Assembly (NCBI RefSeq): GCF_000512915.1
Contig: NZ_CP007034.1
Coordinates: forward strand, 868,001 to 932,000
Source: Barnesiella viscericola DSM 18177
GTDB lineage: Bacteria; Bacteroidota; Bacteroidia; Bacteroidales; Barnesiellaceae
Length of the DNA: 64,000 nucleotides
Direction: 5' to 3'
A program made the position numbers and the translations under genes. Shown piece by piece: positions 33,959-57,418 of the stretch; the first letter of the stretch is position 1; each line of letters opens with the position of its first letter. Below the pieces are notes generated by a model. That model did not search any database, had not been told where the DNA came from, and saw nothing but the letters and a program-made list of their open reading frames with translations.

Positions 33959-34132
33959 TCAGTCGAACAATCCGTTTACCAGATTGACCGCATTGTCCTT
34001 TTTCTGATTGATGATTTTGGCGTACACCTGCGTCATCTTCACATCGGCATGACCGAGTAGCTTCGAAGTGGTATAGAGGTCGGCGCCAAGCGTCAGCATC
34101 ATCGTCGCGAACGTGTGCCGGGCCGTGTGGAA
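33959..34132 (-). pseudogene. C-terminal part of the resident tyrosine recombinase (separated by insertion)
   Basis: 58 codons on the minus strand read FHTARHTFATMMLTLGADLY, then TTSKLLGHADVKMTQVYAKI and a tail to a TGA at 33959-33961. This is the catalytic HxxR box, the second His (LLGHADVKMT) and the nucleophile Tyr (QVYAKI) of a tyrosine recombinase, with nothing upstream. The missing N-terminal 320 codons are at 55088-56047 in the same orientation. Both parts meet in frame at TGGAA. Confidence 0.9.
34128..34132. other. Left attachment core TGGAA (attL)
   Basis: The host-side sequence reads GGGCCGTG-TGGAA and the element side continues CAGAATACAAG. Host coding similarity stops exactly here. 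Confidence 0.8.
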
Positions 34133-34418: not shown

Positions 34419-35648
34419 ATGAAAGTAGAAAAATTCAAGGTGCTGCTCTACCTGAAAAAGAGCGGTCTTGACAAATTTGGGAAGGCTCCGATAATGGGGC
34501 GAATAACGGTGAACAACACGATGGCGCAATTCAGTTGTAAACTGTCATGTACTCCGGAGTTATGGAATCCAAGAGAAAGCCGACTGAATGGAAAGAGTAA
34601 AGAAGCAGTTGATATTAATGCAAAAATTGATCGTCTCTTACTTTCTGTCAATTCTGCATTTGATTCACTTGTTGAACGTAAGACTGATTTTGACGCGACT
34701 GCCGTAAAAGAGCTTTTACAGGGAAGTGTAGAAACCCAGATGACTCTGTTGAAACGGCTTGATATGCATATAGAGGATATGCGCTCAAGAATCGGTATTG
34801 ATGTAGCTAAAAGCTCCATGTCAACATACATTTACACCCGAAGGTATCTTGGCGAATTTATTCAAAAACGATTCAAGACAAGTGATGTTGCTTTTGGACA
34901 GTTGAATGAACACATCCCATGGGAGTTTCAGGATTATATACTGAAGGACAAAGGACTTGCGGTAGATACAGCAAGACATTATCTGGCAATCCTGAAGAAA
35001 ATCTGCCGGATGGCATTCAAGGAAGGACATGCGGAGAAGCGTTATTTTGTGAATTTCAAACTACCCCAAGAGAACCGGAAACCACCACGGGCTTTGAGTC
35101 GTGAGGATTTTGAAAAGATTCGTGATGTTGTGATACCACCGGAAAGAATCACTCATAATATAGCCAGAGATTTGTTTCTCTTTGCCTGTTATACAGGAGT
35201 TCCGTATGCGGATGCAGTTTCAATCACTAGAGATAATATATACAAGGACGATAAAGGTGACTTATGGTTAAAGTACCTGAGAAAGAAGAATGAATATCTG
35301 GCCCGCGTCAAATTGCTGCCGGAGGCTATCTCTCTTATAGAAAAATATCGTTCGGATGACAGGAAAGAGCTTTTCCCTATGATACACCACCCCAATATAA
35401 GACGCCACATGAAAGGTTTGCGGGATCTGGCTGGTATAAGCTGTGATTTGGTCTATCATATGGGAAGGCATACCTTCGGAAGTCTGATAACCCTTGAGGC
35501 TGGTGTTCCTATTGAAACAATCAGCAAAATGCTTGGTCATACCAATCTGACAACTACCCAGCTTTATGCAAGGGTAACTCCTAAAAAACTTTTCGAGGAT
35601 ATGGACAAATTCATCGAGGCAACGAGTGATATGAAACTGGTATTATAA
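34419..35648 (+). CDS. Tyrosine recombinase, probable integrase of the inserted element (1)
   Basis: 409 residues. Arm-binding N-terminus (KFKVLLYLKKSGLDKFGKAP), SAM-like core-binding domain, then the catalytic domain with FACYTGVPYADAVSITRDNI (here the usual Arg of the first box is not obvious: GVPYADA), HMGRHTFGSLITLEAGVPIE, and MLGHTNLTTTQLYARVTP with the nucleophile Tyr. It belongs to the Bacteroides transposon integrase group. It begins 287 bases inside attL and is followed 18 bases later by a second recombinase. Confidence 0.92.
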   Translation: MKVEKFKVLLYLKKSGLDKFGKAPIMGRITVNNTMAQFSCKLSCTPELWNPRESRLNGKSKEAVDINAKIDRLLLSVNSAFDSLVERKTDFDATAVKELLQGSVETQMTLLKRLDMHIEDMRSRIGIDVAKSSMSTYIYTRRYLGEFIQKRFKTSDVAFGQLNEHIPWEFQDYILKDKGLAVDTARHYLAILKKICRMAFKEGHAEKRYFVNFKLPQENRKPPRALSREDFEKIRDVVIPPERITHNIARDLFLFACYTGVPYADAVSITRDNIYKDDKGDLWLKYLRKKNEYLARVKLLPEAISLIEKYRSDDRKELFPMIHHPNIRRHMKGLRDLAGISCDLVYHMGRHTFGSLITLEAGVPIETISKMLGHTNLTTTQLYARVTPKKLFEDMDKFIEATSDMKLVL

Positions 35649-35666: not shown

Positions 35667-36857
35667 ATGAGAAGTACATATAAGCAACTGTATTATATAA
35701 ACCGAAGTAAAGTCAAATCAGACGGGACCACATCAATTATGTGCCGTATTACAATAGACGGAAAGGCTGTTGTATTATCGACCGGGTTGTATTGCCAGCC
35801 GGAAGAGTGGAACAGCAAGAAAGGGGAAGTCAAGAACAACAGACTGAACGGGATGCTTTGCGAGTATAAAAAACGAATAGATGAAACTTATGCTGAACTG
35901 TTGAAAGTAAACGGTGTCATCAGTGCAGAACTGCTGAAAACAGCCATGACCGGAGCAGTCGACATCCCGAAATACATATTACAGGCAGGAGAGGTGGAAC
36001 GGGAAAATCTGAAAATCCGTTCCATTCAGATAGATTCAACCTCCAGTTACAGGCAATCAAAAATGTATCATTACTATCTGGGGGAATACATCCGTTCTCT
36101 TGGCAAGGAGGACATGCTTTTTACAGATATTACCGAAGAGTTTGGCACCAATTTCATTTTGTATCTGAAAACAAATTACCCTCATAAGCCATCATACCGT
36201 AACCATTGTCTTTGCTGGCTGAAACGTCTGGTTTATCTTGCCGTGGATAACGGAATTTTGAGATATAATCCTTTGGATGATATAAAATATGAAAAGAAGG
36301 CACCTACAAAGCTCATGTATATAAGCAAGAATCAACTTCAGGAGATAATGAGCCATCCAAAACCGGATCCACTACAGGAACTTGCAAGAAGAACCTTTAT
36401 ATTTTCATGTTTTTGCGGTTTGGCTTACGTTGATGTCCGCAATCTCTATCCGCATCATATAGGTACAACTGCAGAAGGACGAAAATATATCAGAACATAC
36501 CGCAAGAAAACAAGCGTTGAGTCATTTATACCATTGCATCCGGTAGCTGAGCAGATAATTTCCTTGTATAATACGACAGATGACAGTAAGCCCATCTTCC
36601 CGTTACCCATACGGAGTATGATTTGGTTTGAGATACATGAATTGGGATTTTCGCTTCAGTTCAAGCATAACTTGTCATACCATCAAAGCCGTCATACTTT
36701 CGGTACCTTGATGGTTTCTGCCGGAGTTCCTATGGAAAGCATATCAAAGATGATGGGACATACAAATATCAGAACCACACAAGGATACGCAAAAGTTACA
36801 GATGATAAGATTTCGGAGGATATGGATAAACTAATGGAGAAAAGATATGTTTTTTAA
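35667..36857 (+). CDS. Tyrosine recombinase, probable integrase of the inserted element (2)
   Basis: 396 residues. The N-terminal segment YYINRSKVKSDGTTSIMCRI precedes the catalytic domain, which has CFCGLAYVDVRNLYPHHIGT at the first box (again without the typical Arg), YHQSRHTFGTLMVSAGVPME, and MMGHTNIRTTQGYAKVTDDK with the nucleophile Tyr. It forms a tandem operon with the preceding recombinase. Atypical first-box sequences in both members suggest that they work together or that the Arg is displaced. Confidence 0.9.
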   Translation: MRSTYKQLYYINRSKVKSDGTTSIMCRITIDGKAVVLSTGLYCQPEEWNSKKGEVKNNRLNGMLCEYKKRIDETYAELLKVNGVISAELLKTAMTGAVDIPKYILQAGEVERENLKIRSIQIDSTSSYRQSKMYHYYLGEYIRSLGKEDMLFTDITEEFGTNFILYLKTNYPHKPSYRNHCLCWLKRLVYLAVDNGILRYNPLDDIKYEKKAPTKLMYISKNQLQEIMSHPKPDPLQELARRTFIFSCFCGLAYVDVRNLYPHHIGTTAEGRKYIRTYRKKTSVESFIPLHPVAEQIISLYNTTDDSKPIFPLPIRSMIWFEIHELGFSLQFKHNLSYHQSRHTFGTLMVSAGVPMESISKMMGHTNIRTTQGYAKVTDDKISEDMDKLMEKRYVF

Positions 36858-38772: not shown

Positions 38773-38830
38773 AATTTAAGTATAGAATGATTGAATTATG
38801 ATTAAATATTACAGTCGCCCATTTCCTCGC

Positions 38831-38964
38831 CGTCCATAGAAGTTAGTACAGACTCTATTGAAAGCGAAAAGGTCTGGCGGCTGTGCCGTTTCGGGCAGAA
38901 TCTTCCTCTTTCAGAGCGTATTCAGCCCGAAAACCTTTTCCCTTTCACGTCTGTACAATGGACG
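38831..38964. other. 134-bp nested palindrome (possible structured RNA or protein-binding site)
   Basis: Four collinear stems. CGTCCAT (38831-38837) pairs with ATGGACG (38958-38964). GTACAGAC (38846-38853) pairs with GTCTGTAC (38949-38956). GAAAGCGAAAAGGT (38860-38873) pairs with ACCTTTTCCCTTTC (38933-38946), with one mismatch. GTTTCGGGC (38888-38896) pairs with GCCCGAAA(A)C from 38925. All stack into one long hairpin with a 28-base apical loop. TTTCGGGCA and CCCGAAAACCT recur in the candidate oriT hairpin at 40872-40906. It could be a small RNA, an oriT-like site or a cruciform. Confidence 0.6.
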
Positions 38965-39016
38965 CCGACGGCAGCGGAAACAAGCGACTGACGGAAAAGT
39001 CAGAAAAAAAGACAAA

Positions 39017-39061
39017 ACAGCATATAGATTGGTTCAAATAGGGCCTAATTCTATATGCTGT
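39017..39061. terminator. Bidirectional intrinsic terminator
   Basis: ACAGCATATAGA (39017-39028) and TCTATATGCTGT (39050-39061) pair perfectly and are followed by TATTTTATC on the plus strand. It separates the AlbA_2-RRM unit from the convergent HTH genes. Confidence 0.7.
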
Positions 39062-39180
39062 TATTTTATCATTTGGAAAGGCTATTTTTTAGAAACACAA
39101 ATAAAATGGGCAGGCGGTCAACTGCGCTCCCTCCAGAAAAATCAAAATCCTTGCGTGTTCTTTGTAGAGCGTTTTGCGTG

Positions 39181-39489
39181 TCAGTTTCTTTTGTATTTGT
39201 ACGCCTCCTTATACCCTTTCATCAGTGTCTTTTCTATGTCGGAAGCCCGGTAGAGAATCTTGCCGCCTACCTGTGTGTAAGGCAATATGCCGTTGTTGCG
39301 GTAGTCCTGTAAGGTTCTCCGGCTCACTTTCAGCAGGAATGCCACTTCCTTGTCTGTCAGCAGTTCATCGCCATAGGCAGACGGTTGCCGTTTCTCCAAT
39401 AACTTTTCAAGCAAGGCCAGCAGCCTGTCGAAATTCGAGTGGAACGCCTTTACCCACTCGTGGTCCTTTTCTCTGATTTCATTACTCAT
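39181..39489 (-). CDS. HTH_17/excisionase-like DNA-binding protein
   Basis: 102 residues from ATG 39487-39489; the upstream extension of the frame overlaps the next gene and lacks similarity. An N-terminal coiled segment (NFDRLLALLEKLLEKR) is followed by LLTDKEVAFLLKVSRRTLQD and YRNNGILPYTQVGGKILYRA, the HTH plus wing of Bacteroidales excisionase-type proteins. It is paired with a similar gene 40 bases upstream and probably sets the integrase direction or mob expression. Confidence 0.85.
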   Translation of the reverse strand: MSNEIREKDHEWVKAFHSNFDRLLALLEKLLEKRQPSAYGDELLTDKEVAFLLKVSRRTLQDYRNNGILPYTQVGGKILYRASDIEKTLMKGYKEAYKYKRN

Positions 39490-39529
39490 ACGCGTTTGAT
39501 ATAAGGTTATAATTATTCTTGAAACTCGT

Positions 39530-39841
39530 TCAAATGGTCTTACCTTTCCAACGGGCTTCCTTACGTTTCTCCTCCACATTTCCGACCACACGCTCCACAT
39601 CATCGGGACGGTAGTAAGTCCGGTTTCCGATTTTGGTAAAGGCAAGCGTCCCATTATCCCTCAAGGTCTGGAGGGTTCTCGGACTGATACGTAACCTGCG
39701 GCAGACCTCGTGGTTGTCCATCCATTCACTTGTTTCCTTTCCGCCATGTTCACGGCACAGACTTTCCACCCGCTGCACGAAACGATCCAGCTTGGCGGCA
39801 ATCTCCTCGAAAGTCCTTTTTTCAAAGCTGATGATTTCCAT
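39530..39841 (-). CDS. HTH_17/excisionase-like DNA-binding protein
   Basis: 103 residues. N-terminal helix (FEEIAAKLDRFVQRVESLCR), then WMDNHEVCRRLRISPRTLQT and LRDNGTLAFTKIGNRTYYRP. It has the same architecture as the following gene, a common duplicate pair in Bacteroidales mobilizable elements. The start is ATG at 39839-39841. Confidence 0.85.
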   Translation of the reverse strand: MEIISFEKRTFEEIAAKLDRFVQRVESLCREHGGKETSEWMDNHEVCRRLRISPRTLQTLRDNGTLAFTKIGNRTYYRPDDVERVVGNVEEKRKEARWKGKTI

Positions 39842-40303
39842 TGTCTTCTTTATTTTCAGTTAAACATATATTCAAAAATCTGGAACAGAACAGTTCTTTT
39901 ACAGCCAATATACCATCATGTCTCATCGTCCATTTTCGGATGGAAATGTGACCGTTTTATCCTGTTTCCACTGCAAATAAAAGCAGTAGAAATCACACTG
40001 CAATGGATTTTCAGACCGGTGGCGATGTGTTACCCGGAATGACATCATGTTACATATCAACTGCATACAATGAGCCTTCTTTATAAACGGAATCCGCTTG
40101 AACAAACCGGTATGTAGAAATCACTCCGGCAAATCACGGCAGACAGCACCGACTGTCCAATCGATATTGTGCATAGGGTAACATAATTGCCACGGTATCT
40201 CCATTTGCTTGATTCTGTTCACTATACACATTTCCTTTGCTCACGACAATGAGTCAAGGTGCGCACCGAGACCAGTGAGTAAACCGATTAAAATCAAAAA
40301 TGT
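39842..40303. other. Divergent intergenic region without recognised genes
   Basis: 462 bases between the minus-strand HTH pair and the plus-strand DUF3408 gene. It should contain both promoters, but no exact TAnnTTTG box was found in either direction. No tRNA or open frame of note was seen. Confidence 0.5.
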
Positions 40304-40768
40304 ATGGTAACAAAAAAGAAATTGACCAAAGAAGAATGGGAGGCTATGACAGGTACTGATATGTCACTCATACTCCCGTCAGATGGCAACATTGAAACTG
40401 CCATAGAATCATCCTTGAATGATACCGGAAAAGAGAAGTCAGAAGAAACGGTAGAACAGACCGACTTCACATCCGAGAATCAGGAACTGTCAACCGTAAA
40501 AGAGGAAGCCGTTCCTGCGTCTCAGCGACGTATAAGCAGCAGGCAGAGAAAACTTTCTCTGGACGAATACCGGAAAACCTTTCTTCAGGTTCCGAGAATC
40601 GAAGACCGCAAGCCCGTGTTTGTTAGCGGCGAGGTACGTGACAGGCTGGACGAGTTTGTCCGCAGGTTGGGAGGACGCAAAATGAGCGTTTCCGGACTGC
40701 TTGAGAACATCGCCCGACAGCATCTTGAAATCTACTCGGAAGACTTCGAACAGTGGAGAAAACTGTGA
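40304..40768 (+). CDS. DUF3408 domain mobile-element protein
   Basis: 154 residues. An acidic, low-complexity N-terminal half is followed by the DUF3408 C-terminal module (KPVFVSGEVRDRLDEFVRRL, then GGRKMSVSGLLENIARQHLE). This looks like a ribbon-helix-helix-type fold and is almost restricted to Bacteroidales mobile elements. It usually lies just upstream of mobilization genes, as here, 224 bases before mobC. The role is probably regulation or an accessory DNA-processing function. Confidence 0.8.
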   Translation: MVTKKKLTKEEWEAMTGTDMSLILPSDGNIETAIESSLNDTGKEKSEETVEQTDFTSENQELSTVKEEAVPASQRRISSRQRKLSLDEYRKTFLQVPRIEDRKPVFVSGEVRDRLDEFVRRLGGRKMSVSGLLENIARQHLEIYSEDFEQWRKL

Positions 40769-40848
40769 TATTTTCCTGAATGACAGACTTACTGACTTCA
40801 AGTATCATAGTATTCAGACAGTCTGCAGCGCCCCGGCGGAGTAACGGA

Positions 40849-40924
40849 CAAAACTTCAGTTTTGGGAGTTAGCGAGGTTATCTTTCGGGCATCCCGAAAA
40901 CCTCGCTCCACTCCCGAAGAGTGG
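40849..40924. other. Candidate oriT: three adjacent hairpins upstream of mobC
   Basis: CAAAACT-TC-AGTTTTG (40849-40864). GCGAGGTT (40872-40879) pairs with AACCTCGC (40899-40906), enclosing TTTCGGG-CAT-CCCGAAA. CCACTC-N5-GAGTGG (40908-40924). A cluster of strong inverted repeats just before the mobC-mobA operon is the usual position of an origin of transfer. The nick site is not identified. Confidence 0.6.
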
Positions 40925-40991
40925 AGGCAATCCGCTCCCGGTGGTCGCAGATTGTGGGAAAAAGAATAATCAAAAATCAAACAGAGAAAAT

Positions 40992-41366
40992 ATGAATGAC
41001 AGAAAGAAAAACAGACCGAGGGGACGCCCCAGAGTAAGCGGAGTGTGCAAACTCAGCAAAGCCGTTACAGTGAAATTCTCCAAGATAGACTATGAACGGT
41101 TGTGCCGACGCAGCAGGCAGGCCAACCTCACGCTGGCGGAGTTTCTCCGCGTATCAGCCTTTGAAACGACGATAACGGCCAGGCACTCTGCCGAGGAAAC
41201 TGCCGTCATACGCAGTCTTACGGGGATGGCAAACAACCTGAACCAGCTGACCCGTCTGTCCCATCAGGCAGGATTCCACCGTACACAAAAGACAGTGACA
41301 GAACTCCTGCAGAAACTCAAGGAGATTATAGTCCGGTACAGGAACGGAGAAAGGAGGCAATCATGA
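40992..41366 (+). CDS. Relaxosome accessory protein, MobC family
   Basis: 124 residues from ATG 40992, the first ATG in a frame open to a GTG at 40941. A basic N-terminus (NRPRGRPRVSG) is followed by a ribbon-helix-helix-like region AVTVKFSKIDYERLCRRSRQ and the MobC C-terminal signature MANNLNQLTRLSHQAGFHRT. It helps the relaxase load at oriT. The stop overlaps the start of the relaxase gene as ATGA, showing translational coupling. Confidence 0.88.
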   Translation: MNDRKKNRPRGRPRVSGVCKLSKAVTVKFSKIDYERLCRRSRQANLTLAEFLRVSAFETTITARHSAEETAVIRSLTGMANNLNQLTRLSHQAGFHRTQKTVTELLQKLKEIIVRYRNGERRQS

Positions 41367-42289
41367 TTGGCAAGATCAAGAAAGGGAAATCCTTCGGCGG
41401 CTGTATCCGCTACGTGATGGGCAAGGACAACGCGGAAATCATCGACTCAGACGGTGTATTGCTGGGAAATATCCGGGAAATAACGGACAGTTTCAACTAC
41501 CAGCGTGAGCTTAATCCGAAAATCAAACAGCCTGTCGGGCACATTGCATTGAGCTTCAAGCCGGAAGACAAGGCATTGCTTACGGATGAATTTATGGCTA
41601 AAATAGCCCGGGAATACATGGAGCTGATGGGGATAAAAAACACTCAGTTTATTCTGGTAAGGCACCATAACACGGACAATCCGCACTGCCACCTGGTCTA
41701 TAACCGTATCGGATATGACGGAAAGGTAATCTCTTCCCAAGGCGATTACAAGCGCAATGAAATTGCCACAAAACTGCTTAAGAACAAGTACGGGCTGACA
41801 TATGCGGAGGGCAAGGGCAAGACTAATGTGGAGAAACTCCATGCTTCGGAACGTGTGAAATACGAAATCTTCAATGCTGTCAAGGCAGCTTTGAAGTGCT
41901 CCGGAACATGGAAAGAGTTCAACGATTATCTGCTTCGCCGGGGCATCAGGCTGGAATTTGTAAAGCGTGTCAGGGAGATAAAAAGGCCGGAGGATATACA
42001 GGGAATCCGGTTCACCAAGGACGGGCAAACCTTCAAGGCTTCGCAAATCAGCCGGGAGTTCAGCTTTGCCAGGCTGAATGCCTTGTTGAGTTGGAAGACT
42101 TCGGAGTCCCAACAGGAATCCGAACGTAAGGTGCAGCAAGGGATACCGGACGGAGGCCATCTTCTCGTAAGTACAGGACCGGGACTGTTCAGTCCGACAA
42201 ACGGCACCGTTCCCGAAGAGCCGTTACATCAAGAAGAACTCTTGCGCAGACGCAAGAAAAAGAAAAGGAGGAAAGGATTCGGGCTGTAG
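41363..42289 (+). CDS. MobA/VirD2-type relaxase (MOBP-like)
   Basis: 308 residues. The N-terminal Tyr region is KSFGGCIRYVMGKDNAEIID, and motif III is RHHNTDNPHCHLVYNRIGYD (near residues 106-125), the His triad that binds the metal. It nicks oriT and pilots the strand during mobilization. The C-terminal part is short and ends in a Lys/Arg run (RRRKKKKRRKGF), smaller than relaxases with an attached primase. It is one cistron with mobC. Confidence 0.92.
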   Translation: MIGKIKKGKSFGGCIRYVMGKDNAEIIDSDGVLLGNIREITDSFNYQRELNPKIKQPVGHIALSFKPEDKALLTDEFMAKIAREYMELMGIKNTQFILVRHHNTDNPHCHLVYNRIGYDGKVISSQGDYKRNEIATKLLKNKYGLTYAEGKGKTNVEKLHASERVKYEIFNAVKAALKCSGTWKEFNDYLLRRGIRLEFVKRVREIKRPEDIQGIRFTKDGQTFKASQISREFSFARLNALLSWKTSESQQESERKVQQGIPDGGHLLVSTGPGLFSPTNGTVPEEPLHQEELLRRRKKKKRRKGFGL

Positions 42290-42339
42290 CCAGTCCTTTC
42301 TTCATTCAAATTATTCATGAACATTAAAATTGTAGGAAT

Positions 42340-43107
42340 ATGAAATTGGAAGAATATATCGAGAGCATCTTCGGATGCCTGGAAAGAATCGAGAACAAAA
42401 TCAACGGGTTGTCCGTTCCCTTGCCGGAAGGGAATTGCCCGACAGTTAACAATGAAAAGGATGAGTCCGTGCTGAATGAAGTCCGGAATGGTCATGAGAC
42501 ATTTCGCAAATTGTTGGCTCGCATGTGCGAGGGTCTTGCCGCCATCAAGAACGATATAGTTTCCATGGACAGGAAGAACTCGTCACAGGAAAGACTTGGA
42601 CAGGTCTTGTCAGAAATACGGAATGAACAGCGGCAGAACCAGGAGAAAGTGGAAACCCTGTTTTGTGAGACCAATGACACAATCAGGAAGAATGCCGTCA
42701 AGACAAGCAACATCAACCATCATTTCAGCCTGAGCTTGGAATCCCCGTACATCCTTGGGAGTTTTTCCGTAATGTTCGCGGCAATCGTGGCCCTGTCCGT
42801 GGCGCTCTATTTTTCGGCGAGAACAGATAACGCACAGTCCGATAATGATCTGAAGTACCGTTATGTCAAGATGAAAGGAGAGGCTACTCCCGAGCAACTT
42901 GTGGAACTTGAGAACCTTTTTGGGCCGAACCGGGATAACGGACGGATCGGACAGATGCGTGAGGATGTGGAAGCCTACGAAGAAGCGGTACGGAGACAGG
43001 CCACCCTGACCGAGCAGGCTCGGCTGAAGGAACAGGCCGCGAGAGAACTGGACAGCAAGGCGAAGTCCATCAAGGACAAGTCTATTACGGACGAACCCAA
43101 AAAGTAA
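42340..43107 (+). CDS. Mobilization-associated membrane protein
   Basis: 255 residues. The N-terminal half is coiled (ESIFGCLERIENKINGLSVP, then ERLGQVLSEIRNEQRQNQEK), there is one central membrane helix (GSFSVMFAAIVALSVALYF, near residues 143-161), and a charged coiled-coil C-terminus follows. Similar proteins follow relaxase genes in Bacteroidales elements; a link between the relaxosome and the coupling protein at the membrane is plausible but unproven. It starts 50 bases after the relaxase stop. Confidence 0.75.
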   Translation: MKLEEYIESIFGCLERIENKINGLSVPLPEGNCPTVNNEKDESVLNEVRNGHETFRKLLARMCEGLAAIKNDIVSMDRKNSSQERLGQVLSEIRNEQRQNQEKVETLFCETNDTIRKNAVKTSNINHHFSLSLESPYILGSFSVMFAAIVALSVALYFSARTDNAQSDNDLKYRYVKMKGEATPEQLVELENLFGPNRDNGRIGQMREDVEAYEEAVRRQATLTEQARLKEQAARELDSKAKSIKDKSITDEPKK

Positions 43108-43111
43108 GCCC

Positions 43112-44314
43112 ATGGCCAGTGTCAAAGTGAAATTCAGACCTTCCACCATAGAGGGAAAGGAAGGTACCGTCTATTATCAGATTATCCAGAACCGTGTAAT
43201 CCGTCAGTTAAAGACGGATTACCGGATATTTACGGAAGAATGGAATGAAGCTGGGAACTGCATCATTGGCGGTAGTTCGGAACGAAGCAATCTGCTTCTT
43301 TCCTTGCAGGAACGCATGGAATGGGACCTGAAACGGCTGGACATGATCGTCCGACAACTGAATAACCGGAAAGCCGGATATACGGCAGATGATATTGTCG
43401 CTTCTTTTCAGAGCAATATAGAGGGACAGTCGTTTTTCAACTTCATGCAAGGCATCATAGCCCGTCTCAAACAGATGGGCAAGATACGCACGGCTGAAAA
43501 TTATTCCTGCACCCTGAAAAGTTTCATGCAGTTCAGAGGAGACAGGGATATTCTGCTGTCCGAAATCGATTCGGACCTGATGCAGCTATATGAGGCTTAC
43601 CTTCATAAAAAAGGTGCCGTACGGAATACCAGTTCATTCTACATGCGTATCCTTCGGGCGGTATATAACCGTGCCCTGGAAAAGGAACTGATGGAACAGT
43701 GCAATCCTTTCAGGCATGTCTATACGGGAGTGGACAAGACCGTCAAGCGTGCCGTTTCCTTATCTGCCATCAAGCGTATGAAGAATCTGGACTTGTCCTT
43801 ACAGCCTAATCTGGAATTTGCGAGGGACATGTTCCTGTTCAGTTTCTATACCCGTGGCATATCATTCATAGATATGGCTCACCTAAAAAAGAAAGATCTT
43901 CAGAACGGATTTTTATCGTATCGCAGACGAAAGACCGGGCAGCAGCTGGTTATCAGGTGGGAAAAATGTATGCAGGAGATTGTCGGCAAATACCCGGAAG
44001 ACAGTTTCAGTCCTTATCTTTTGCCGGTATTGAAATATCCTTTTAAGGATACGCACAAGCATTACAGGAATGTCATGTCCGGAATAAATCGGAACCTGAA
44101 AGAAATAGCCAGACTGGCCGATATATCCGTTCCTATTAGCATGTACTGTGCCCGTCATTCATGGGCAAGCGCAGCCAAAGGCAAGAATATTCCGATTTCG
44201 GTTATCAGTGAAGGAATGGGGCATGATTCCGAGGCGACCACACAAATTTATCTGACCTCATTGGACAATTCCGTAGTGGACAAAGCCAACGCACAAATTC
44301 TGAAATGTCTGTAG
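43112..44314 (+). CDS. Tyrosine recombinase, candidate DNA invertase
   Basis: 400 residues. The N-terminus VKVKFRPSTIEGKEGTVYYQ is typical of the Bacteroidales invertase/shufflon recombinases rather than island integrases. The catalytic boxes are FSFYTRGISFIDMAHLKKKD (Arg), MYCARHSWASAAKGKNIPIS and EGMGHDSEATTQIYLTSLDN (His, Tyr). It starts 4 bases after the mobilization membrane protein, so it is read with the mob operon. Its 3' end lies 29 bases before the left 17-bp inverted repeat of the invertible segment, the expected place for the enzyme that flips it. Confidence 0.88.
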   Translation: MASVKVKFRPSTIEGKEGTVYYQIIQNRVIRQLKTDYRIFTEEWNEAGNCIIGGSSERSNLLLSLQERMEWDLKRLDMIVRQLNNRKAGYTADDIVASFQSNIEGQSFFNFMQGIIARLKQMGKIRTAENYSCTLKSFMQFRGDRDILLSEIDSDLMQLYEAYLHKKGAVRNTSSFYMRILRAVYNRALEKELMEQCNPFRHVYTGVDKTVKRAVSLSAIKRMKNLDLSLQPNLEFARDMFLFSFYTRGISFIDMAHLKKKDLQNGFLSYRRRKTGQQLVIRWEKCMQEIVGKYPEDSFSPYLLPVLKYPFKDTHKHYRNVMSGINRNLKEIARLADISVPISMYCARHSWASAAKGKNIPISVISEGMGHDSEATTQIYLTSLDNSVVDKANAQILKCL

Positions 44315-44343
44315 GATTGGAGAACGTTTAGCAAAAGCATTCA

Positions 44344-44522
44344 TTTCTTAGACAGAGGGACTCACTCTTGCGCAAAGTTATACATTTTATTGAAAATCCT
44401 GCAATTCCGGTCGTTGGATTTTCATCCGGAAGTCATTGAATTTCAATTGTAGTTTAGCAATCCTACATATAATTCATCAGCAAATCAGCCTTATAGCCTG
44501 AAATCTCCCTCTGTCTAAGAAA
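44344..44522. promoter_or_regulatory. Predicted invertible promoter segment (17-bp inverted repeats), OFF orientation
   Basis: TTTCTTAGACAGAGGGA at 44344-44360 and its exact reverse complement at 44506-44522 bound 145 bases. Inside, on the minus strand, TAACTTTG (44373-44380) is a perfect TAnnTTTG -7 box with a TTG about 20 bases upstream of it. As drawn it fires leftwards, towards the recombinase 3' end. After inversion the box would lie at 44486-44493 on the plus strand, reading into the restriction genes that begin at 44570. No other TAnnTTTG box reading rightwards was found between 44315 and 44570. Confidence 0.82.
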
Positions 44523-44569
44523 GACGCAGACACCGGGACTTTCTCATCCCCTTTACGCACAGAAAGAAG

Positions 44570-45604
44570 ATGAAGAAAACAACCGGAGAAGCCGACATAC
44601 AGGAGAACAAACTGAAAGAACTTTCACCCGACTTACTGAATACCTTGCTCAAAGATCATACAACGAGCAAGGAAGGAAAACAGTGTAATATATTCTGGGC
44701 TACTTCCGATTATGAACAGCTCGGCAAAGGTTATGAATACGGGTCACAGATTCTCCCAGAGTTGATAACCGGAGAGAACGGGCATGTAGTCATGCCCCGT
44801 GTTCTGAAACACAGGGATACCCAAAGCACACGTTCCCGGGAAATGGCGGAGGTATTTACTCCATCCTGGATCTGTAATGCCCAGAACAACCTTATCGATG
44901 AAGCCTGGTTTGGCAGAAAGGATGTATTCAACCATGAAGTGACATCCAAAGACGGTACACATTCATGGGAAATCAATCCTGATAAGATTGCTTTTCCTGA
45001 AGGCAGGACATGGAAAAACTATGTACGGGAAAACCAGTTGGAAATCACCTGTGGAGAAGCTCCTTATCTGGTAAGCAGGTATGATACGACTACCGGAACA
45101 TTCATTCCTGTGGAGAAGCGTATCGGCCTGCTTGACCGTAAGCTCCGTATTGTCAGTGAGAATACTACGACAACGCGTGAATGGCTGGAGGCAGCCAAGG
45201 ATGCTTACAGAAGTATCTATGCCTATGAATGGCAGGGCGACAGTCTTCTTCTTGCCCGTGAAGCACTTCTCTTATCCTTCATCGAATATTACCGGAACAA
45301 GTTCGGTAAAGACCCGCAAATTAAATCCATCAACCATATAGCCTATATCATCTCCTGGAATGTATGGCAGATGGACGGACTGAAAGGTGTTGTTCCGGAC
45401 AGTTGCGGAGAACGTGTGCGGATGGAACCAAGTCTGTTCGGTACGATTGAAAGACGAGAGCCGTGCGAGGGCTGTCTGAAAAATGACCTGACCAAGCACA
45501 ACGGAATTTACTGTATTATCAAGGACTGGCGGGCTACAGACAAGACAACAGGCAAAAAGGGGAAACGAATCCGATTTATCGACCTCATAAATGAAGAAGC
45601 ATGA
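44570..45604 (+). CDS. Restriction-modification-associated protein (partner of the helicase-methyltransferase)
   Basis: 344 residues. TRSREMAEVFTPSWICNAQN resembles the motif X region of N6-adenine methyltransferases (x-F-T-P-x-x-I/V), and a CEGCLKNDLTKHNGIYCIIK segment near the C-terminus suggests a small Cys motif. The classical motif I (DPACGSG) and motif IV (NPPY) are absent, so it is not a complete methyltransferase alone. Its stop overlaps the start of the large fusion gene (ATGA), so the two are made together. It is the first gene after the invertible promoter. Confidence 0.72.
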   Translation: MKKTTGEADIQENKLKELSPDLLNTLLKDHTTSKEGKQCNIFWATSDYEQLGKGYEYGSQILPELITGENGHVVMPRVLKHRDTQSTRSREMAEVFTPSWICNAQNNLIDEAWFGRKDVFNHEVTSKDGTHSWEINPDKIAFPEGRTWKNYVRENQLEITCGEAPYLVSRYDTTTGTFIPVEKRIGLLDRKLRIVSENTTTTREWLEAAKDAYRSIYAYEWQGDSLLLAREALLLSFIEYYRNKFGKDPQIKSINHIAYIISWNVWQMDGLKGVVPDSCGERVRMEPSLFGTIERREPCEGCLKNDLTKHNGIYCIIKDWRATDKTTGKKGKRIRFIDLINEEA

Positions 45605-48600
45605 GATTCACATCGTCCCTGAAACTAAAACTGATCTATGTGTTCCGTATCAATGATGCGGCACACCGTGAATGCCTGAAGATTGGCGAGGCAACCTGTG
45701 AGGATGAAAATGTGTTCGGCCTGTCTCCCAACAGCAAGGTGCTCAATGAAGCGGCAAGAAAGCGTATCAACCAATACACACAGACGGCAGGCATCGCATA
45801 CGATCTGCTATATACGGAACTGACTGTTTACAACCGTGGCGGACTCCGTTCGTTCAACGACAAGGAAGTACATAATGTCCTGGAACGCTCCGGTATCAAA
45901 AAGAAAGTCTTCGATACAGTCAACAAGGCCAATGAATGGTTCATCACCGATCTGGAAACCGTCAAGCGTGCCATTGCGGCTGTCAAGGAAGGCAGGAGCT
46001 CTCTTTCATCAGTGGAAGTTACCCAGGAGTATTCTCCAATTGTATTCCGCCCGGAACAACAGGAAGCCATCAGCAAGACCAAGAAACAGTTTAAGAAAGG
46101 CAACCAGATGCTCTGGAACGCAAAGATGCGTTTCGGAAAGACCCTTTCTGCTCTGGAGGTTGTCAAGGATATGGAGTTTCAGCGTACCCTGATTCTGACT
46201 CATCGTCCTGTGGTGGATGCCGGATGGTTTGAGGATTTCGGTAAGATCTTTTACGACCGCAAGGATTTTGCATACGGTTCCAAGAACAACGGGGATAGTT
46301 TTGCCAGTCTAGAACGGCGGGCAGAAAGCAACGGGCTTCATTATGTTTATTTTGCATCCATGCAGGATTTGCGCGGTTCCGAACTTGTGGGTGGCAACTT
46401 TGACAAGAATAACGAGGTGTTTGCTACCGATTGGGACCTGATTATCGTGGATGAAGCGCACGAAGGCACCCAGACCGAACTGGGTAAAGCGGTTATGGGA
46501 GAGCTGGTCAAGGAACAGACCAAAGTATTGCGCCTGTCAGGTACTCCATTCAACCTGCTGGATGATTTCAAGGAGGATGAAATATATACATGGGACTATG
46601 TGATGGAACAACGGGCCAAGATAAACTGGGATGAGCTCCATTTTGGTGACCCCAATCCGTATGCCTCACTGCCTACACTCAATATCTATACCTACGATTT
46701 GGGACGGCTGCTTCATGACTTTGTAGATGAGGATGTCGCCTTTAACTTCAGGGAATTTTTCCGAGTCAATGAGGCTGGCGGTTTCTGTCATGAAAAAGAT
46801 GTGCGGGCTTTTCTGAACCTTCTTACCAAGGAGGACAAGGACAGCCTTTATCCATATGCCAACGAGGAATATCGGAATATTTTCCGCCATACACTCTGGA
46901 TGGTGCCCGGCGTGAAGGAAGCACGGGCACTGAGTGCCATGCTCCAGACACATCCGGTGTTCCAGCATTTCAAGGTGGTCAATGTAGCCGGTGACGGTGA
47001 TCAGGACGAGGAAAGCCGTGATGCCCTGGAAGCCGTGGAAAAGGCTATCGGAAAAGATCCGGATGCTACACGGACCATTACCCTCTCTTGTGGACGGCTA
47101 ACGACCGGAGTAAGTGTAAAGGCATGGACTGCCGTATTCATGCTGTCCGGATCCTATAATACAGCCGCATCCAGTTATATGCAGACCATCTTCCGCGTAC
47201 AGACACCGGCCACCATCAACGGACGGATGAAGGAGCAGTGTTACGTTTTCGATTTTGCTCCCGACCGTACCCTAAAAGTGATAGCCGAAACCGCCAAAAT
47301 ATCGGCCAAAGCCGGAAAAACTTCACAAAGCGACCGTAAGGCTATGGGTGAGTTTATCAATTTCTGTCCCATCATATCCATAGAGGGCTCACAGATGAAC
47401 CGCTTTGATGTACCCTGTATGTTGGAACAGTTGAAACGGGTATATGTGGAACGTGTCGTCCGTAACGGGTTTGAAGACAACAGTCTGTATAACGATGAGC
47501 TGATGAAACTGGATGATCTGGAACTGCAAGAATTCGATGACCTGAAAAAGATTATCGGACAGACCAAAGCCATGCCCAAGACCAACCAGGTGGACATCAA
47601 CAGTCAAGGTCTGAACAATGAGGAATACGAGGAAAAGGAGAAGCTGGAGAAGAAACCCAAGAAGGAACTTACGGAGGAAGAACGGAAACGGCTGGAAGAA
47701 CTGAAAAAGAAGACCAAGAACAGGGAAGCGGCCATTTCCATACTTCGTGGCATCTCCATCCGTATGCCCCTGTTGATTTATGGTGCGGAACTGAGTGATG
47801 AGAGTCAGGAAATCACGATTGATAATTTTGCCTCACTCATTGACCCACAGTCATGGGAAGAGTTCATGCCCAAGGGAGTGACCAAGCAGAAATTCAACAG
47901 CTTCAAAAAATACTATGATCCGGAAATATTCTGTGCTGCCGGAAAACGAATCCGTGCGATGGCCCGTGCCGCGGACAAACTGAGTATTGAGGAACGAATC
48001 GAACGAATTACGGACATCTTCAGTACTTTCCGTAATCCGGACAAGGAAACGGTGCTTACTCCGTGGCGCGTGGTAAACATGCACCTCGGAGACTGTCTTG
48101 GAGGCTATAACTTTTATGACACAGACTATCAGAATGTGATTTCTGAACCACGGTTTATAGACAAAGGAGAGGTTACCTCAGAAGTTTTCTCCCCTGAATC
48201 CCGTATTCTGGAGATCAACTCCAAATCCGGACTGTATCCGCTTTATATGGCATACGGCTTTTACCGGGCAAGGGCAAAGGCTTCTCTTTTCGCTGTAGAA
48301 ACAGTAGAAGAGCAGCAGACTGTATGGGACAAGGTCATAGCTGAGAACATCTTTGTCATCTGCAAGACTCCGATGGCAAAAAGTATTACCAAACGTACGC
48401 TTGCCGGATTCCGTAAAGCAAAGACAAATATGTGGGCTCCGGAAGATCTTATCAACAAAATAAAGAATCAATCAGAATTATTCATTAAAAAAGTACATGA
48501 CTTAATAGGCAAAGACATGAAGATTAATGCTATAGTCGGTAATCCTCCATACCAAATCAATGATGGAAGCGGTGCATCTGACGATGCTGCAAATCCTATA

Positions 48601-49551
48601 TACCAAATATTTGTACGGATAGCAAAACAGATCAGACCTGAATACTTTTCCCTGATTATGCCTTCAAAATGGATGATTGGAGGAAAAGCTGTACTCAAAC
48701 CATTCAGAAAAGAAATGATGGAAGATAAACATATTGCATCCATCTATGATTATGAGGATTCTGGTGAATGTTTTAACGGGCAGCATATAGATGGTGGAAT
48801 CTGTTATTTTCTTTGGAGTAACAAGCACAATGGTAAGTTGCGTTACACTTATATTTCAGCTAATAAAGAGTTTTTTGTATCTACAAGATTCTTATCCGAT
48901 GGAAATTCTGATATCGTTATACGTGACAACCGTCGTCAATCTATTATTGCTAAAACTTCTACAAATTGCTCCTTATTTAAGGAGATAGTCTCATTAACCC
49001 AGCCGTTTGGAATCAGAAAGGATTTATTTAATTCGCCAGAAAGATATCCACTGTCTAATTTACAAGCAGAGCCTTTTTATGGGAGCGTAAAAATTTATGG
49101 TGTGAAAGGAATTAAAGGAGGAGCAAGAAGGACCATTGGATATATTTCACCTGAAATTATAACAAAAAACAAAGCAGCAGTAAACAAGTATAAATTATTT
49201 TTTACAACCAGTTATTCTACAAATGCTTTCAATCCACCTGAAACCATCATAGGAGAACAAAACTCAGTCTGTACAGAGACTTTCCTTTTGATTGGACCAT
49301 TTGACACTGAGATAGAACAGAAAAATTGTTATAAATACATTTGTACAAACTTTTTTAAGGCATTATTGTTTTTTGGTCGAGGTACTATGCAAGTATCTCA
49401 AGATGTTTTTAGATTTATTCCACTACAAGATTTTAGTAATCAAAGCGATATTAAATGGAACAAATCTATATCAGAAATAGATCAACAATTATGCATAAAA
49501 TATGCTTTTACCCAGCAAGAAGTATTATCTATCGATAGAAATCATTTATAA
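45601..49551 (+). CDS. Single-chain restriction enzyme: GIY-YIG-like nuclease, SF2 helicase, N6-adenine methyltransferase
   Basis: 1316 residues. The N-terminal GIY-YIG-like domain is about 9-110 (LKLIYVFRINDAAHRECLKI, then ARKRINQYTQTAG). The SF2 translocase has Walker A WNAKMRFGKTLSALE (near 174), LIIVDEAHEGTQ (near 281), LRLSGTPFNL and GRLTTGVSVKAW. A Lys/Glu coiled linker lies near 680-705. The methyltransferase has EINSKSGLYPL in place of motif I (near 871) and motif IV NPPYQIND (near 981), then a C-terminal recognition region that is more AT-rich. The layout resembles type ISP enzymes with a different nuclease. It is predicted to restrict foreign DNA and methylate self. Confidence 0.85.
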   Translation: MRFTSSLKLKLIYVFRINDAAHRECLKIGEATCEDENVFGLSPNSKVLNEAARKRINQYTQTAGIAYDLLYTELTVYNRGGLRSFNDKEVHNVLERSGIKKKVFDTVNKANEWFITDLETVKRAIAAVKEGRSSLSSVEVTQEYSPIVFRPEQQEAISKTKKQFKKGNQMLWNAKMRFGKTLSALEVVKDMEFQRTLILTHRPVVDAGWFEDFGKIFYDRKDFAYGSKNNGDSFASLERRAESNGLHYVYFASMQDLRGSELVGGNFDKNNEVFATDWDLIIVDEAHEGTQTELGKAVMGELVKEQTKVLRLSGTPFNLLDDFKEDEIYTWDYVMEQRAKINWDELHFGDPNPYASLPTLNIYTYDLGRLLHDFVDEDVAFNFREFFRVNEAGGFCHEKDVRAFLNLLTKEDKDSLYPYANEEYRNIFRHTLWMVPGVKEARALSAMLQTHPVFQHFKVVNVAGDGDQDEESRDALEAVEKAIGKDPDATRTITLSCGRLTTGVSVKAWTAVFMLSGSYNTAASSYMQTIFRVQTPATINGRMKEQCYVFDFAPDRTLKVIAETAKISAKAGKTSQSDRKAMGEFINFCPIISIEGSQMNRFDVPCMLEQLKRVYVERVVRNGFEDNSLYNDELMKLDDLELQEFDDLKKIIGQTKAMPKTNQVDINSQGLNNEEYEEKEKLEKKPKKELTEEERKRLEELKKKTKNREAAISILRGISIRMPLLIYGAELSDESQEITIDNFASLIDPQSWEEFMPKGVTKQKFNSFKKYYDPEIFCAAGKRIRAMARAADKLSIEERIERITDIFSTFRNPDKETVLTPWRVVNMHLGDCLGGYNFYDTDYQNVISEPRFIDKGEVTSEVFSPESRILEINSKSGLYPLYMAYGFYRARAKASLFAVETVEEQQTVWDKVIAENIFVICKTPMAKSITKRTLAGFRKAKTNMWAPEDLINKIKNQSELFIKKVHDLIGKDMKINAIVGNPPYQINDGSGASDDAANPIYQIFVRIAKQIRPEYFSLIMPSKWMIGGKAVLKPFRKEMMEDKHIASIYDYEDSGECFNGQHIDGGICYFLWSNKHNGKLRYTYISANKEFFVSTRFLSDGNSDIVIRDNRRQSIIAKTSTNCSLFKEIVSLTQPFGIRKDLFNSPERYPLSNLQAEPFYGSVKIYGVKGIKGGARRTIGYISPEIITKNKAAVNKYKLFFTTSYSTNAFNPPETIIGEQNSVCTETFLLIGPFDTEIEQKNCYKYICTNFFKALLFFGRGTMQVSQDVFRFIPLQDFSNQSDIKWNKSISEIDQQLCIKYAFTQQEVLSIDRNHL

Positions 49552-49568
49552 AACTCTTTTACGAATAT

Positions 49569-49576
49569 CAGTGAAA
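49569..49576. repeat. 8-bp target duplication CAGTGAAA (left)
   Basis: CAGTGAAA here and again at 50946-50953 directly flank the IS256-family element. An 8-bp duplication is the normal length for this family, so the boundaries are secure. Confidence 0.85.
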
Positions 49577-50945
49577 GGCACTATAAAATATTTTGTGTAA
49601 ATGGAAATACGGGATTCAGAAATGAGTCTCGTATTTTTTATTGTATACATTTGCAAAATGAAAAAGATTATGAAAGAAAAAAATCAAGTAGTGCCTGATG
49701 AGGTGTTAAGCAAAGAGTTCCTTAGCCAGTTCAAAACAGAAGCCGATGTAAGCAAGTTCCTGAAGCAATTGCATGCCCAGGTATTGGAAAAGATGCTTGA
49801 AGGTGAAATGGATGCCCATTTGGGCTATGAAAAGAATTCTGTAGCCGGTAATAACAGCGGTAATTCACGTAATGGCAGCTATCCAAAGAAAATTCAGACC
49901 GAACATGGAGAAGCAGTCATCTCTATACCCCGTGATCGTAACGGTCAATTTGAGCCAATAGCCGTACCCAAACATGAGAGTCGTGGACTTTCTATAGAAA
50001 AGCTTGTTATCTCCCTATACGCCAAAGGAATGAGTGTTTCTGATATAGAAGAAGAAATGCGTGAGATTTATGAGATAGAGCTCTCTACATCAGCCATTTC
50101 CATCATTACCAACAAGGTAAACCAGGCCGCCCAGGAATGGTAGAACCGCCCTTTGGATCCTGTTTATCTGATAGCCTGGATGGACGGTATTGTTTTCAAA
50201 GTACGGGATAACGGCAAGATCATAAACAAGACCGTTTACCTTTGCGTCGGACTAAAACAGAACGGCCTGAAGGAAGTCCTTGGCATGTGGGTCGGCAAAT
50301 CGGAAAGCTCTTCTTTCTGGATGGGTGTTCTGACCGATTTAAAGGCACGTGGAGTACAGGATATACTGATTACCTGTACCGACAACCTGAATGGATTTAC
50401 AGATACCATCCGCACCGTATTCCCTCAGTCATCTACTCAAATCTGTGTGGTGCATCAGATCAGAAACTCCTGTAAATATGTCGTTGACAAGGACAAGAAA
50501 GAGTTTACGGCGGATATGAAGAATATCTATAATGCACCCAACAAAGAGGTTGCGGCCACAGAACTTGACAATCTGGAAAAGAAATGGGGAGGAAAGTATC
50601 CATACGCCATACTTTCATGGAGAAACAACTGGGATGATTTGACAGTTTTCTTCCAGTTCCCGCTGGAAATCAGAAAAATAATCTATACTACAAATCTCAT
50701 TGAAAATCTGAACGGGAAAATCAGAAAGTACACAAAATCAAAGCTCTCATTCCCTTCGGACGATGCCGTAAAAAAGACCGTGTATCTTTCACTTATGGAG
50801 ATTGAGAAGAAATGGACACAGCCTATTCATAACTGGGGCTTGATTATGAACCAATTTATGCTTATTTTTGAAAACAGAATCCAGATATAAGAATAAACTT
50901 ACAGCTGAATCCTGTTTCCATTTACACAAAATTTTGGACAGTGTC
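49577..50945 (+). mobile_element. IS256-family insertion sequence (1369 bp)
   Basis: The ends are imperfect inverted repeats of the same length: GGCACTATAAAATATTTTGT on the left and GACACTGTCCAAAATTTTGT (reverse complement of the right end), both continuing GTAAATGGAAA. It carries one mutator-type transposase gene and sits 25 bases after the stop of the restriction fusion gene, so the cargo genes are not broken. Confidence 0.9.
49658..50890 (+). pseudogene. IS256-family transposase with an internal amber codon
   Basis: The first part (to 50143) has the mutator-family N-terminus LKQLHAQVLEKMLEGEMDAH and SRGLSIEKLVISLYAKGMSV. It ends AAQEW followed by TAG at 50141-50143. In the same frame the sequence continues NRPLDPVYLIAWMDGIVFKV through the DDE catalytic region (CTDNLNGFTDTIRTVFP) to the normal end at 50890. 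The family usually has Gln (CAG) at the stop position, so a single C-to-T change explains it. The transposase is 410 codons in all. Readthrough cannot be excluded. Confidence 0.88.
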
Positions 50946-50953
50946 CAGTGAAA
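50946..50953. repeat. 8-bp target duplication CAGTGAAA (right)
   Basis: Second copy of the duplication flanking the IS256-family element. Confidence 0.85.
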
Positions 50954-51004: not shown

Positions 51005-51496
51005 TTACACCATAATTGTATCTAAGATTTCAATGATTTGAATAGCCTCAGAAAAACGATCCTTCATATCATTAAATGATAGTGTGGAATTAGTCCCATG
51101 AGCAACATTATTTCTTTCTCTATTTAATACAGAAAATGCTTCTTTTAAACTTTCACTGTTTGGTAAAGTTGTTATTGCTGACTTGAAATTTTGATTTTTG
51201 TTATCATCAAAACGTTTTAATGCTTGACATATGTTTTCATAAGTAGGATTCATTGATGCATCTCTTAAATGATATCCTATAAATTGTCCCAGTTGCGGTG
51301 CCGCATTTTCATAATAATCTGCAATAATTGTTTTATAACAGACTTCAAGAGTTCCACATATGCGGATCAAAGAATATTTGGTCAGATATCCAGAGAGTGG
51401 GCTAGTACTCCCAACCCCATTTATAATACCTGTAATACGGTCTAGCTCGGCATTACAGTCATCGATAGCAGCCTTGGCATTAATATTATTAATCAT
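51005..51496 (-). CDS. HEPN-domain protein, candidate RNase toxin of a DUF262 pair
   Basis: 163 residues from ATG 51494-51496; the start overlaps the DUF262 stop as ATGA, and an upstream extension of the frame would lie inside that gene. It is an all-helical protein with the motif RERNNVAHG near the C-terminus, giving the Arg-x4-His active site of HEPN ribonucleases. An N-terminal pattern DDCNAELDRITGIINGV and a region SLIRICGTLEVCYKTIIADY are as in RiboL-PSP/MAE-type HEPN families. The coupling with DUF262 suggests a toxin-regulator or abortive-infection unit. It is AT-rich like its partner. Confidence 0.72.
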   Translation of the reverse strand: MINNINAKAAIDDCNAELDRITGIINGVGSTSPLSGYLTKYSLIRICGTLEVCYKTIIADYYENAAPQLGQFIGYHLRDASMNPTYENICQALKRFDDNKNQNFKSAITTLPNSESLKEAFSVLNRERNNVAHGTNSTLSFNDMKDRFSEAIQIIEILDTIMV

Positions 51497-52611
51497 AGTT
51501 TTATACCATATAAAAAATGGAGTGCGCAAGAGATGCGTGTTCGGATATTATCTATTTTCATAGTACCTTGAGATATACTTTCCCTATATGTCGCATCTCT
51601 TAATAATGCAAGGCGTTTCTCTGGTAAATTTTTTACTACATCAATGCATCCTTTTTTTAATGCTATTGAAGTTGCAATCATTATAGAATCAAAAACTGTA
51701 GGGTATAGTCTACGTCTTATTTTAGAGAGATCATTTTGTAGATTAAAAAATGCTTCTTCTCCCATATTTGTATAGATAAAATCTATAACAGAATAAAATT
51801 CACTTTCTTTTTCAGCAATAAAATCTGTAGAGGCATTAATATTTGATTGCATATATTTATTTAGAGTCTGCTTTAAACTTATTTTCTTTTTGTCAGAATT
51901 ATATATTTCTACAGAATTTAATGCGTAATATCTAAGGATTAATTCTAAATCCATCATCCTTGGATCTTCTTCTTGTTCTCCATACAAATAACGCCATTGT
52001 TGATACTTATTTACTTTAAATAAAAGGGTATTCATATTACCTTGATATACGCAATTACGAATTTCTTGATTATTTAATGTGGTACCACTAGTATTAATTC
52101 TTTCAAAAACTTGAAAGAGCCCAGAATCATCAGATGGATGTTTTTGTTCAAAAACAATTGCATGAATAGTGTAGTTTTTCAGTCTTCTTTTATCTATTTC
52201 AGTTAGCTCTTTAAAGGCTTTTCCTCTCCAACGTTCGTTTATAAGTTCTGAATTAATTAATTTAAAATCAGAATCGTCACCATGCCATATACCGTCTTCA
52301 ATATAGTCGTATAATGTACGTATTCGTTGATAACCATCAATAATAAGGCGTTTCCCAGATTGTTCAATGTTTGCTAAAAATATACTAGGAACAGGAAGTC
52401 CAAGAAGTAGCGATTCTATAAAACGGCTAGCATCTTTTTTCTTCCATACATATTTTCTCTGCAACTCAGGTTTTTCAATATCACCTTCTTTATATTGTTG
52501 GATTAATTCTCTAACAGAAGGATCTGCGCCCCATGAGGTAATATTAAACAGGTCATCATTAGAGAACTCTTCATTTTGCTCTTCTGAAATAAAATCTATA
52601 TGTTCACTCAT
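51493..52611 (-). CDS. DUF262 (ParB/GmrS-like) protein
   Basis: 372 residues. ELIQQYKEGDIEKPELQRKY, then VWKKKDASRFIESLLLGLPV, then RLIIDGYQRIRTLYDYIEDG (usual motif DGQQR, here DGYQR) and LFQVFERINTSGTTLNNQEI are diagnostic of DUF262, the nucleotide-binding domain of GmrSD-type modification-dependent restriction and many defence systems. The C-terminal helical part lacks the DUF1524 HNH nuclease, so the effector is presumably the overlapping HEPN gene. Confidence 0.88.
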   Translation of the reverse strand: MSEHIDFISEEQNEEFSNDDLFNITSWGADPSVRELIQQYKEGDIEKPELQRKYVWKKKDASRFIESLLLGLPVPSIFLANIEQSGKRLIIDGYQRIRTLYDYIEDGIWHGDDSDFKLINSELINERWRGKAFKELTEIDKRRLKNYTIHAIVFEQKHPSDDSGLFQVFERINTSGTTLNNQEIRNCVYQGNMNTLLFKVNKYQQWRYLYGEQEEDPRMMDLELILRYYALNSVEIYNSDKKKISLKQTLNKYMQSNINASTDFIAEKESEFYSVIDFIYTNMGEEAFFNLQNDLSKIRRRLYPTVFDSIMIATSIALKKGCIDVVKNLPEKRLALLRDATYRESISQGTMKIDNIRTRISCALHFLYGIKL

Positions 52612-52745
52612 AGCTATGATAATTAAATTTTCTATACTTAATTTGTACGCTCTAAATCTAATACGAAATTGGCTTTATGTTAAATTAATGTTTATTTTAT
52701 TGCATAACAGGTAAAGCTGCACCACATATTGGAAGGCAACAATAT

Positions 52746-55082: not shown

Positions 55083-55131
55083 TGGAATGAGAAACGCTTG
55101 TCTATGCCTGCCGCTCTTGCCCACGGTTTGA
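54964..55131 (+). other. Short ORF crossing attR (would be a different 59-aa ORF in the excised circle)
   Basis: ATG 54964 lies 28 bases after the TACCTTTG box. In the integrated state it reads into the host integrase antisense and stops at 55131. In the predicted circle the frame passes AAT-GGA-A into attL-side sequence and continues TEYKKQVDEGMRKKNVIG to a TGA at 34186-34188. Whether it is translated is unknown. It has no family match I can name. Confidence 0.35.
55083..55087. other. Right attachment core TGGAA (attR)
   Basis: The element side reads CTACTCAAA-TGGAA and the host side continues TGAGAAACGCTTG, which is antisense to codons for KRFSF of the resident integrase. Confidence 0.8.
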
Positions 55132-57410: not shown

Positions 57411-57418
57411 GGCTCTCG

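Follow-up and report, generated by a model that had tools for sequence, protein, structure and literature searches.

A probable invertible promoter of a restriction-modification operon on a mobilizable island of Barnesiella viscericola, and the exchangeable cargo of its relatives

Results and Discussion

The island and its restriction operon

The stretch of DNA analysed here, referred to as the window, comprises 64,000 nucleotides of Barnesiella viscericola DSM 18177 (NZ_CP007034.1, positions 868,001 to 932,000). It contains a mobile island with the following main features:

34130 to 55087, no strand: mobile island, approximate extent, ~21 kb
34419 to 35648 and 35667 to 36857, plus strand: two tandem tyrosine integrases of the HxxRHTF type, at the left island end
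38809 to 44524, plus strand: module 93% conserved in a second island (L003), where homology stops at the right repeat
40941 to 41366, plus strand: MobC-like relaxosome protein, at the gene-order position of the annotated MobC in L090
41363 to 42289, plus strand: MobA-type relaxase of the conserved mobile module
42340 to 43107, plus strand: conserved hypothetical protein between relaxase and recombinase
43112 to 44314, plus strand: tyrosine recombinase, 400 aa, putative invertase, with the catalytic motif YCARHSW instead of HxxRHTF
44570 to 45604, plus strand: first restriction-modification (R-M) gene, methyltransferase-like subunit, 344 aa (PADLOC MTase_II, 1.2e-119)
45601 to 49551, plus strand: second R-M gene, 1316 aa, with a ResIII helicase, an Eco57I methylase with NPPY and a GIY-YIG/T5orf172-like N-terminus (GIY-YIG only by way of 30% identity to a type B relative that matches T5orf172)

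The tandem integrases (34.1-36.85 kb) are followed by a slot of variable content, then by the mob-recombinase-inverton module (38.8-44.5 kb) and finally by defence genes. With its tandem integrases, its relaxase and ends that fall inside a recombinase gene, the island has the make-up of an integrative mobilizable element. The Barnesiella genome carries two such islands, which differ in their R-M cargo and are both in the OFF orientation described below.

The cargo in the window had been predicted to be a GIY-YIG/helicase/methyltransferase system, and this description fits: the second protein combines a T5orf172-like region with ResIII (2.1e-13) and an Eco57I-type methylase (8.3e-26, NPPY at residue 981), all domain assignments in this and the type B operon being profile matches, and a separate methylase-like subunit precedes it. 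Methylase NPPY, helicase and nuclease domains together are those of a type IIG-like or helicase-containing R-M system. An hsdS shufflon was dropped as a candidate, as the repeats lie outside coding genes, HsdS was not found and the system does not qualify as type I.

An inverton upstream of the operon

Between recombinase gene and operon lies an inverton of 179 bp (44344-44522):

44326 to 44332, plus strand: GTTTAGC motif outside the left repeat, candidate arm-type recombinase site
44344 to 44360, plus strand: left inverted repeat, perfect, 17 bp, putative recombinase core site TTTCTTAGACAGAGGGA
44361 to 44505, no strand: invertible segment, 145 bp, in OFF orientation here and inverted in L007
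44373 to 44380, minus strand: -7 box TAACTTTG of a Bacteroidales promoter, pointing at the recombinase (OFF)
44402 to 44404, minus strand: TTG (-33 element), with a 21-nt spacer to the -7 box (TTG-N21-TAACTTTG)
44452 to 44458, plus strand: GTTTAGC motif inside the segment, strand reversed in ON loci
44506 to 44522, minus strand: right inverted repeat, copy of the left site in opposite orientation

The original prediction of perfect 17-bp repeats around 145 bases holds to the base, with the two arms at exactly 44344-44360 and 44506-44522. By our own arithmetic, a random sequence of 64 kb should contain ~0.002 such pairs within 500 bp. The 15-bp core of the repeat occurs at only two places in the window (0.05 expected in shuffles), and its 12-bp centre forms only two pairs in the whole genome, namely this inverton and one in the second island. 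The locus thus shows inverted repeats in the range of 10-40 bp around a short segment, as well as an inner promoter with a downstream gene in an orientation that it could regulate. As had been claimed, the promoter faces away from the restriction genes, being located on the minus strand with its -7 box at 44380-44373 and its TTG at 44404-44402. The recombinase gene, of which the prediction had said that it encodes an invertase-type enzyme and stops 29 bases to the left, does end at 44314, which leaves 29 bp to the left repeat, and the right repeat is 47 bp away from the start codon at 44570.

These features suggest the following mechanism. In the OFF state seen here, transcription from the promoter would run to the left and enter the recombinase gene at its 3' end. 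The operon (44570-49551) would be OFF because the promoter faces left and the operon has no recognisable promoter of its own. Inversion would move the -7 box to 44486-44493, about 75 bp before the start codon as predicted, and turn the restriction operon ON. We assign a probability of about 0.88 to the reading of 44344-44522 as an inverton, in which inverted core sites of a tyrosine recombinase surround a single promoter, which is most likely inverted by the product of 43112-44314 and thereby switches the R-M operon. We infer from sequence that this recombinase catalyses the flip, that flipping occurs in Barnesiella viscericola DSM 18177 and that orientation sets the expression of the operon; in principle, the recombinase could act on other sites, or another enzyme could flip the segment.

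Antisense transcription in the OFF state may damp the recombinase and so stabilise this state. Read-through from the recombinase gene into the restriction operon is possible, and a simple scan found no plus-strand terminator between the two. The same scan, which looked for terminators and sigma-70 promoters, detected neither a plus-strand promoter nor a plus-strand terminator within the inverton. This bears on an explanation in which the inverted repeats fold into a hairpin that acts as terminator or operator, and in which the sole role of the minus-strand promoter is to make antisense RNA against the recombinase, into whose 3' end it indeed points. With 145 bp between the arms a hairpin is unlikely, the scan yields no terminator there, and the segment is observed to be inverted elsewhere, so that we consider this explanation highly improbable.

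Orientation of the segment in other genomes

Evidence for a promoter switch comes from Bacteroides mediterraneensis An793 (L007), which has the same flanks and repeats around a reverse-complemented segment, so that the promoter points into the restriction operon (ON). A separate whole-genome search gave the same picture, the inner part matching one strand of An793 and the two outer parts the other. The original prediction had proposed to look for both forms across isolates, and across genomes both were found: the exact inverton is OFF in 12 distinct copies, including both of the Barnesiella genome, and ON in one of 13, where duplicate records of the same genomes were merged, only clear cases were counted (16 loci were ambiguous by automatic ON/OFF scoring) and the ON evidence is one assembly (L007). 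In the phylum-wide sample, we obtained only short, weak matches beyond the genome itself, and exact ON or OFF junctions were not found in viral contigs.

Since only one of 13 distinct copies is ON, flipping could be rare or mostly historical; the OFF bias may also be a product of culture. Taken further, the segment might have been inverted once and now be locked OFF here, a fossil switch with a silent restriction system, for which the 12 of 13 OFF copies, with both from the Barnesiella genome among them, can be cited. We regard this as improbable: repeats, promoter, catalytic residues of the recombinase and long cargo reading frames are all intact, and all parts are kept in near-identical copies of several genera, which argues for continued use.

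Two further loci support an invertible promoter that switches the restriction system. In L087 (genome G190), the same promoter is fixed ON in front of the same 344-aa gene, the repeats are not intact and the upstream gene is, by our own reading of its sequence, peptidase-like and not a recombinase. Because the promoter is kept there, fixed ON, without intact repeats or an adjacent recombinase, we conclude that it belongs to the restriction operon. The second is found on pMMCAT plasmids, whose recombinase is 51% identical and whose inverton precedes UpxY and an exopolysaccharide operon. The promoter points away from UpxY (OFF) in 17 of 18 records of this inverton at ≥99% identity; the sole flipped copy, NZ_CP072238.1, has the segment inverted between the same 19-bp repeats.

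The recombinase and its recognition sites

The recombinase, whose class we can add to the original prediction, is a tyrosine recombinase by its Pfam domains (Phage_int_SAM_5, Phage_integrase, Arm-DNA-bind_5); a serine invertase was discarded as a candidate, since the protein has no such domain. Its family, tyrosine recombinases encoded beside invertons, is characterised by the motifs YxxRHSW and GHDSE..TTQIYL, the former at the position where the integrases at the island end carry HxxRHTF. An NCBIfam search with the recombinase returned only Xer/integrase models, below their cut-offs, and no model named after a DNA invertase, which concerns the naming of models and not function.

Such repeats accompany most of 80 relatives of the recombinase, down to ~50% identity, and those of the closest relatives are identical to the pair in the window. 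In 43 invertons, the repeats have arms TCTCT and AAGAGA (TCTCT-N4-AAGAGA) around a variable centre of ~4 bp, which differs between loci and is the same within a locus, the latter being partly a condition of the search. This pattern would correspond to two recombinase half-sites flanking a free crossover region. A further motif, GTTTAG[CT], is present in 32 of the 43 invertons, whereas shuffled sequences gave a mean of 3.65, with the qualification that the 43 loci are kin and hence not independent. Its usual places are ~18 nt outside the left repeat and, as a second copy, inside the segment. Because the recombinase has an arm-binding domain, these motifs may be arm-type sites. The inner copy is on the opposite strand in four loci scored ON (L007, L017, L049, L067), with L062 as an exception; L017, ambiguous by the automatic score, was assigned to ON on the basis of the TATTTTTG box at its right end and of the strand of the motif.

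Exchangeable cargo behind the inverton

In 52 of 53 family loci the next gene lies on the plus strand, mostly starting within 65 nt of the repeat. Near-identical recombinases head three types of R-M operon. Type A, as in the window, encodes proteins of 344 and 1316 aa; type B is a similar R-M system split differently (220, 510 and 969 aa); and type C (L003, L004) consists of a Snf2 helicase of the HKD+Snf2 type and a methylase. More distant recombinases are found with type III R-M (L017), type IIG (L029, L030, L042) and Zorya II (L051), and in L037 the cargo comprises genes related to the dynamin-like LeoA/LeoBC. Other more distant relatives are followed by fimbrillin or other surface-type genes (L052, L058, L060-L062) or by a TonB-like gene (L045). 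The recombinase tree mixes types A, B and C among enzymes that are ~95% identical, and therefore the cargo has been exchanged while the recombinase was retained. As far as the right repeat, type C has the same inverton as type A; type B has a repeat pair of its own, which at 12 bp was below the 13-bp limit of the search and was recovered with looser settings.

This exchange raises the question of whether the repeats are mainly a site of cargo exchange or attachment, with the recombinase inserting or swapping defence cassettes at the right repeat and promoter inversion being a side effect. Homology indeed ends at the right repeat, both between the two islands of the genome and when type A islands are compared with those of type C, and different cargo follows near-identical recombinases. 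We nonetheless judge this explanation to be quite improbable. The island has tandem integrases of its own and ends elsewhere; the core is present neither at the island ends nor elsewhere in the genome, and searches of window and genome found no direct copies of it that could act as attachment sites; and type B cargo is accompanied by a different repeat pair. Cargo exchange alone would also leave the inverted segment of L007 and the fixed promoter of L087 unexplained.

The promoter switch belongs to the island, and what the original prediction missed is that it forms part of a portable module, carried by a mobile island, whose defence cargo is interchangeable. On the mobilizable island the relaxase-recombinase-inverton module is retained, and the defence operon downstream of it changes. 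We lean, with some reservation, towards a broader interpretation: in a family of Bacteroidales mobile islands, a dedicated recombinase and an invertible promoter would provide a default-OFF socket for exchanged defence systems (several R-M types, Zorya II and operons of unknown function), in which a small ON minority would protect the population and newly arrived restriction enzymes would stay silent in an unmethylated recipient. The advantage of the OFF state on transfer is our proposal. If true, this could explain how unmethylated hosts survive the arrival of restriction enzymes on mobile islands, and why many methyltransferase genes of Bacteroides genomes seem to be silent, as noted in PMC10333322. 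The defence state would then be readable from the orientation of the inverton in long-read data.

Invertons of this kind also offer a way to seek new defence systems behind them. One seven-gene operon (L048:5896-15551 and L043:11364-21067) follows an inverton in two recombinase clades that are otherwise associated with R-M or Zorya. Its matches, all weak, are tubulin-like, actin/Ppx-like and MotB/OmpA-like, PADLOC gave no match for the three L048 proteins scanned, and we consider it a candidate for a defence system of a new type.

Relation to known invertible systems

Invertible promoters are well established, including on ICEs, as is the phase variation of R-M systems through inversion (PMC12632263, PMC11892184, PMC8748976). 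Phase variation known from Bacteroidales mainly concerns surface structures, and that of R-M systems mainly proceeds by specificity switching or repeat slippage. The closest parallels are the invertible promoters of Bacteroidales capsule and exopolysaccharide loci (UpxY loci, pMMCAT), with the same promoter type, inverted repeats, a nearby tyrosine recombinase (51% identical in pMMCAT) and a common OFF state; their cargo, however, is polysaccharide synthesis, whereas here it is R-M on a mobilizable island. ICE-borne antibiotic-resistance genes behind invertible promoters (Yan et al. 2022, PMC8748976) likewise combine promoter and invertase on mobile elements with variable downstream cargo, but there resistance genes are inserted into glycan-synthesis loci, in contrast to the defence cargo here; the words 'defense' and 'phage' do not occur in that paper's main text.

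The phase variation of type I R-M through inversion of hsdS (inverton group 145, PMC11892184) resembles our case as an R-M system of gut Bacteroidales under site-specific inversion, and relaxase and MobC are enriched near this group (PMC11892184); the type I hsdS-inversion system of B. fragilis is credited to Ben-Assa 2020 in PMC12632263. Whereas hsdS inversion rearranges specificity genes, here the promoter alone moves, which would switch a whole system of a type other than type I ON or OFF. The E. coli fim switch (314-bp fimS, FimB; PMC9993118) similarly relies on a tyrosine recombinase that inverts a short promoter segment. It differs in being an unrelated element with other host factors and cargo. 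In Mycoplasma pulmonis, inversion involves the hsd genes and is not known to involve a separate portable promoter module. That system, as cited from Dybvig and Yu 1994 in PMC11892184, is a precedent for R-M control by DNA inversion.

In the literature we searched, we found no account of an invertible promoter module whose defence cargo is exchangeable; this is weak evidence for novelty, as several key papers were outside the search. The inverton principle is known, and our results suggest that the newer part is the portable default-OFF socket for exchangeable defence systems.

Island ends and neighbouring genes

The island ends fall inside tyrosine recombinase genes, at their HxxRH motif. In the window, the island splits another tyrosine recombinase gene within the codons of its catalytic HxxRH motif (33966-34130 and 55060-56047), and insertion at these codons is also seen at the left ends of L005, L010, L014, L019 and L038 and at the right end of L012. 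As different host recombinases are struck, the island may target and inactivate the integrases of other elements.

Between the R-M operon and the minus-strand genes of the island lies an IS256-family insertion (49576-50946), whose transposase is split over two frames (49601-50143 and 50153-50890); the same island in Coprobacter secundus (L012) is without this IS256 copy. The minus-strand region 51005-54764, which is 99.5% identical in L012, encodes further defence-like cargo: a GmrSD-N/NsnA-like protein (51493-52611) and, next to it, a protein that matches HATPase weakly (52746-54764). Outside the island, a second defence-like cluster on the minus strand (56991-59242) has a Vsr-like endonuclease adjoining an AIPR/MzaE-like protein. 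A short remnant of IS256 ends, 32 bp of it identical, is located at L003:5340-5377, just left of the conserved module of the second island.
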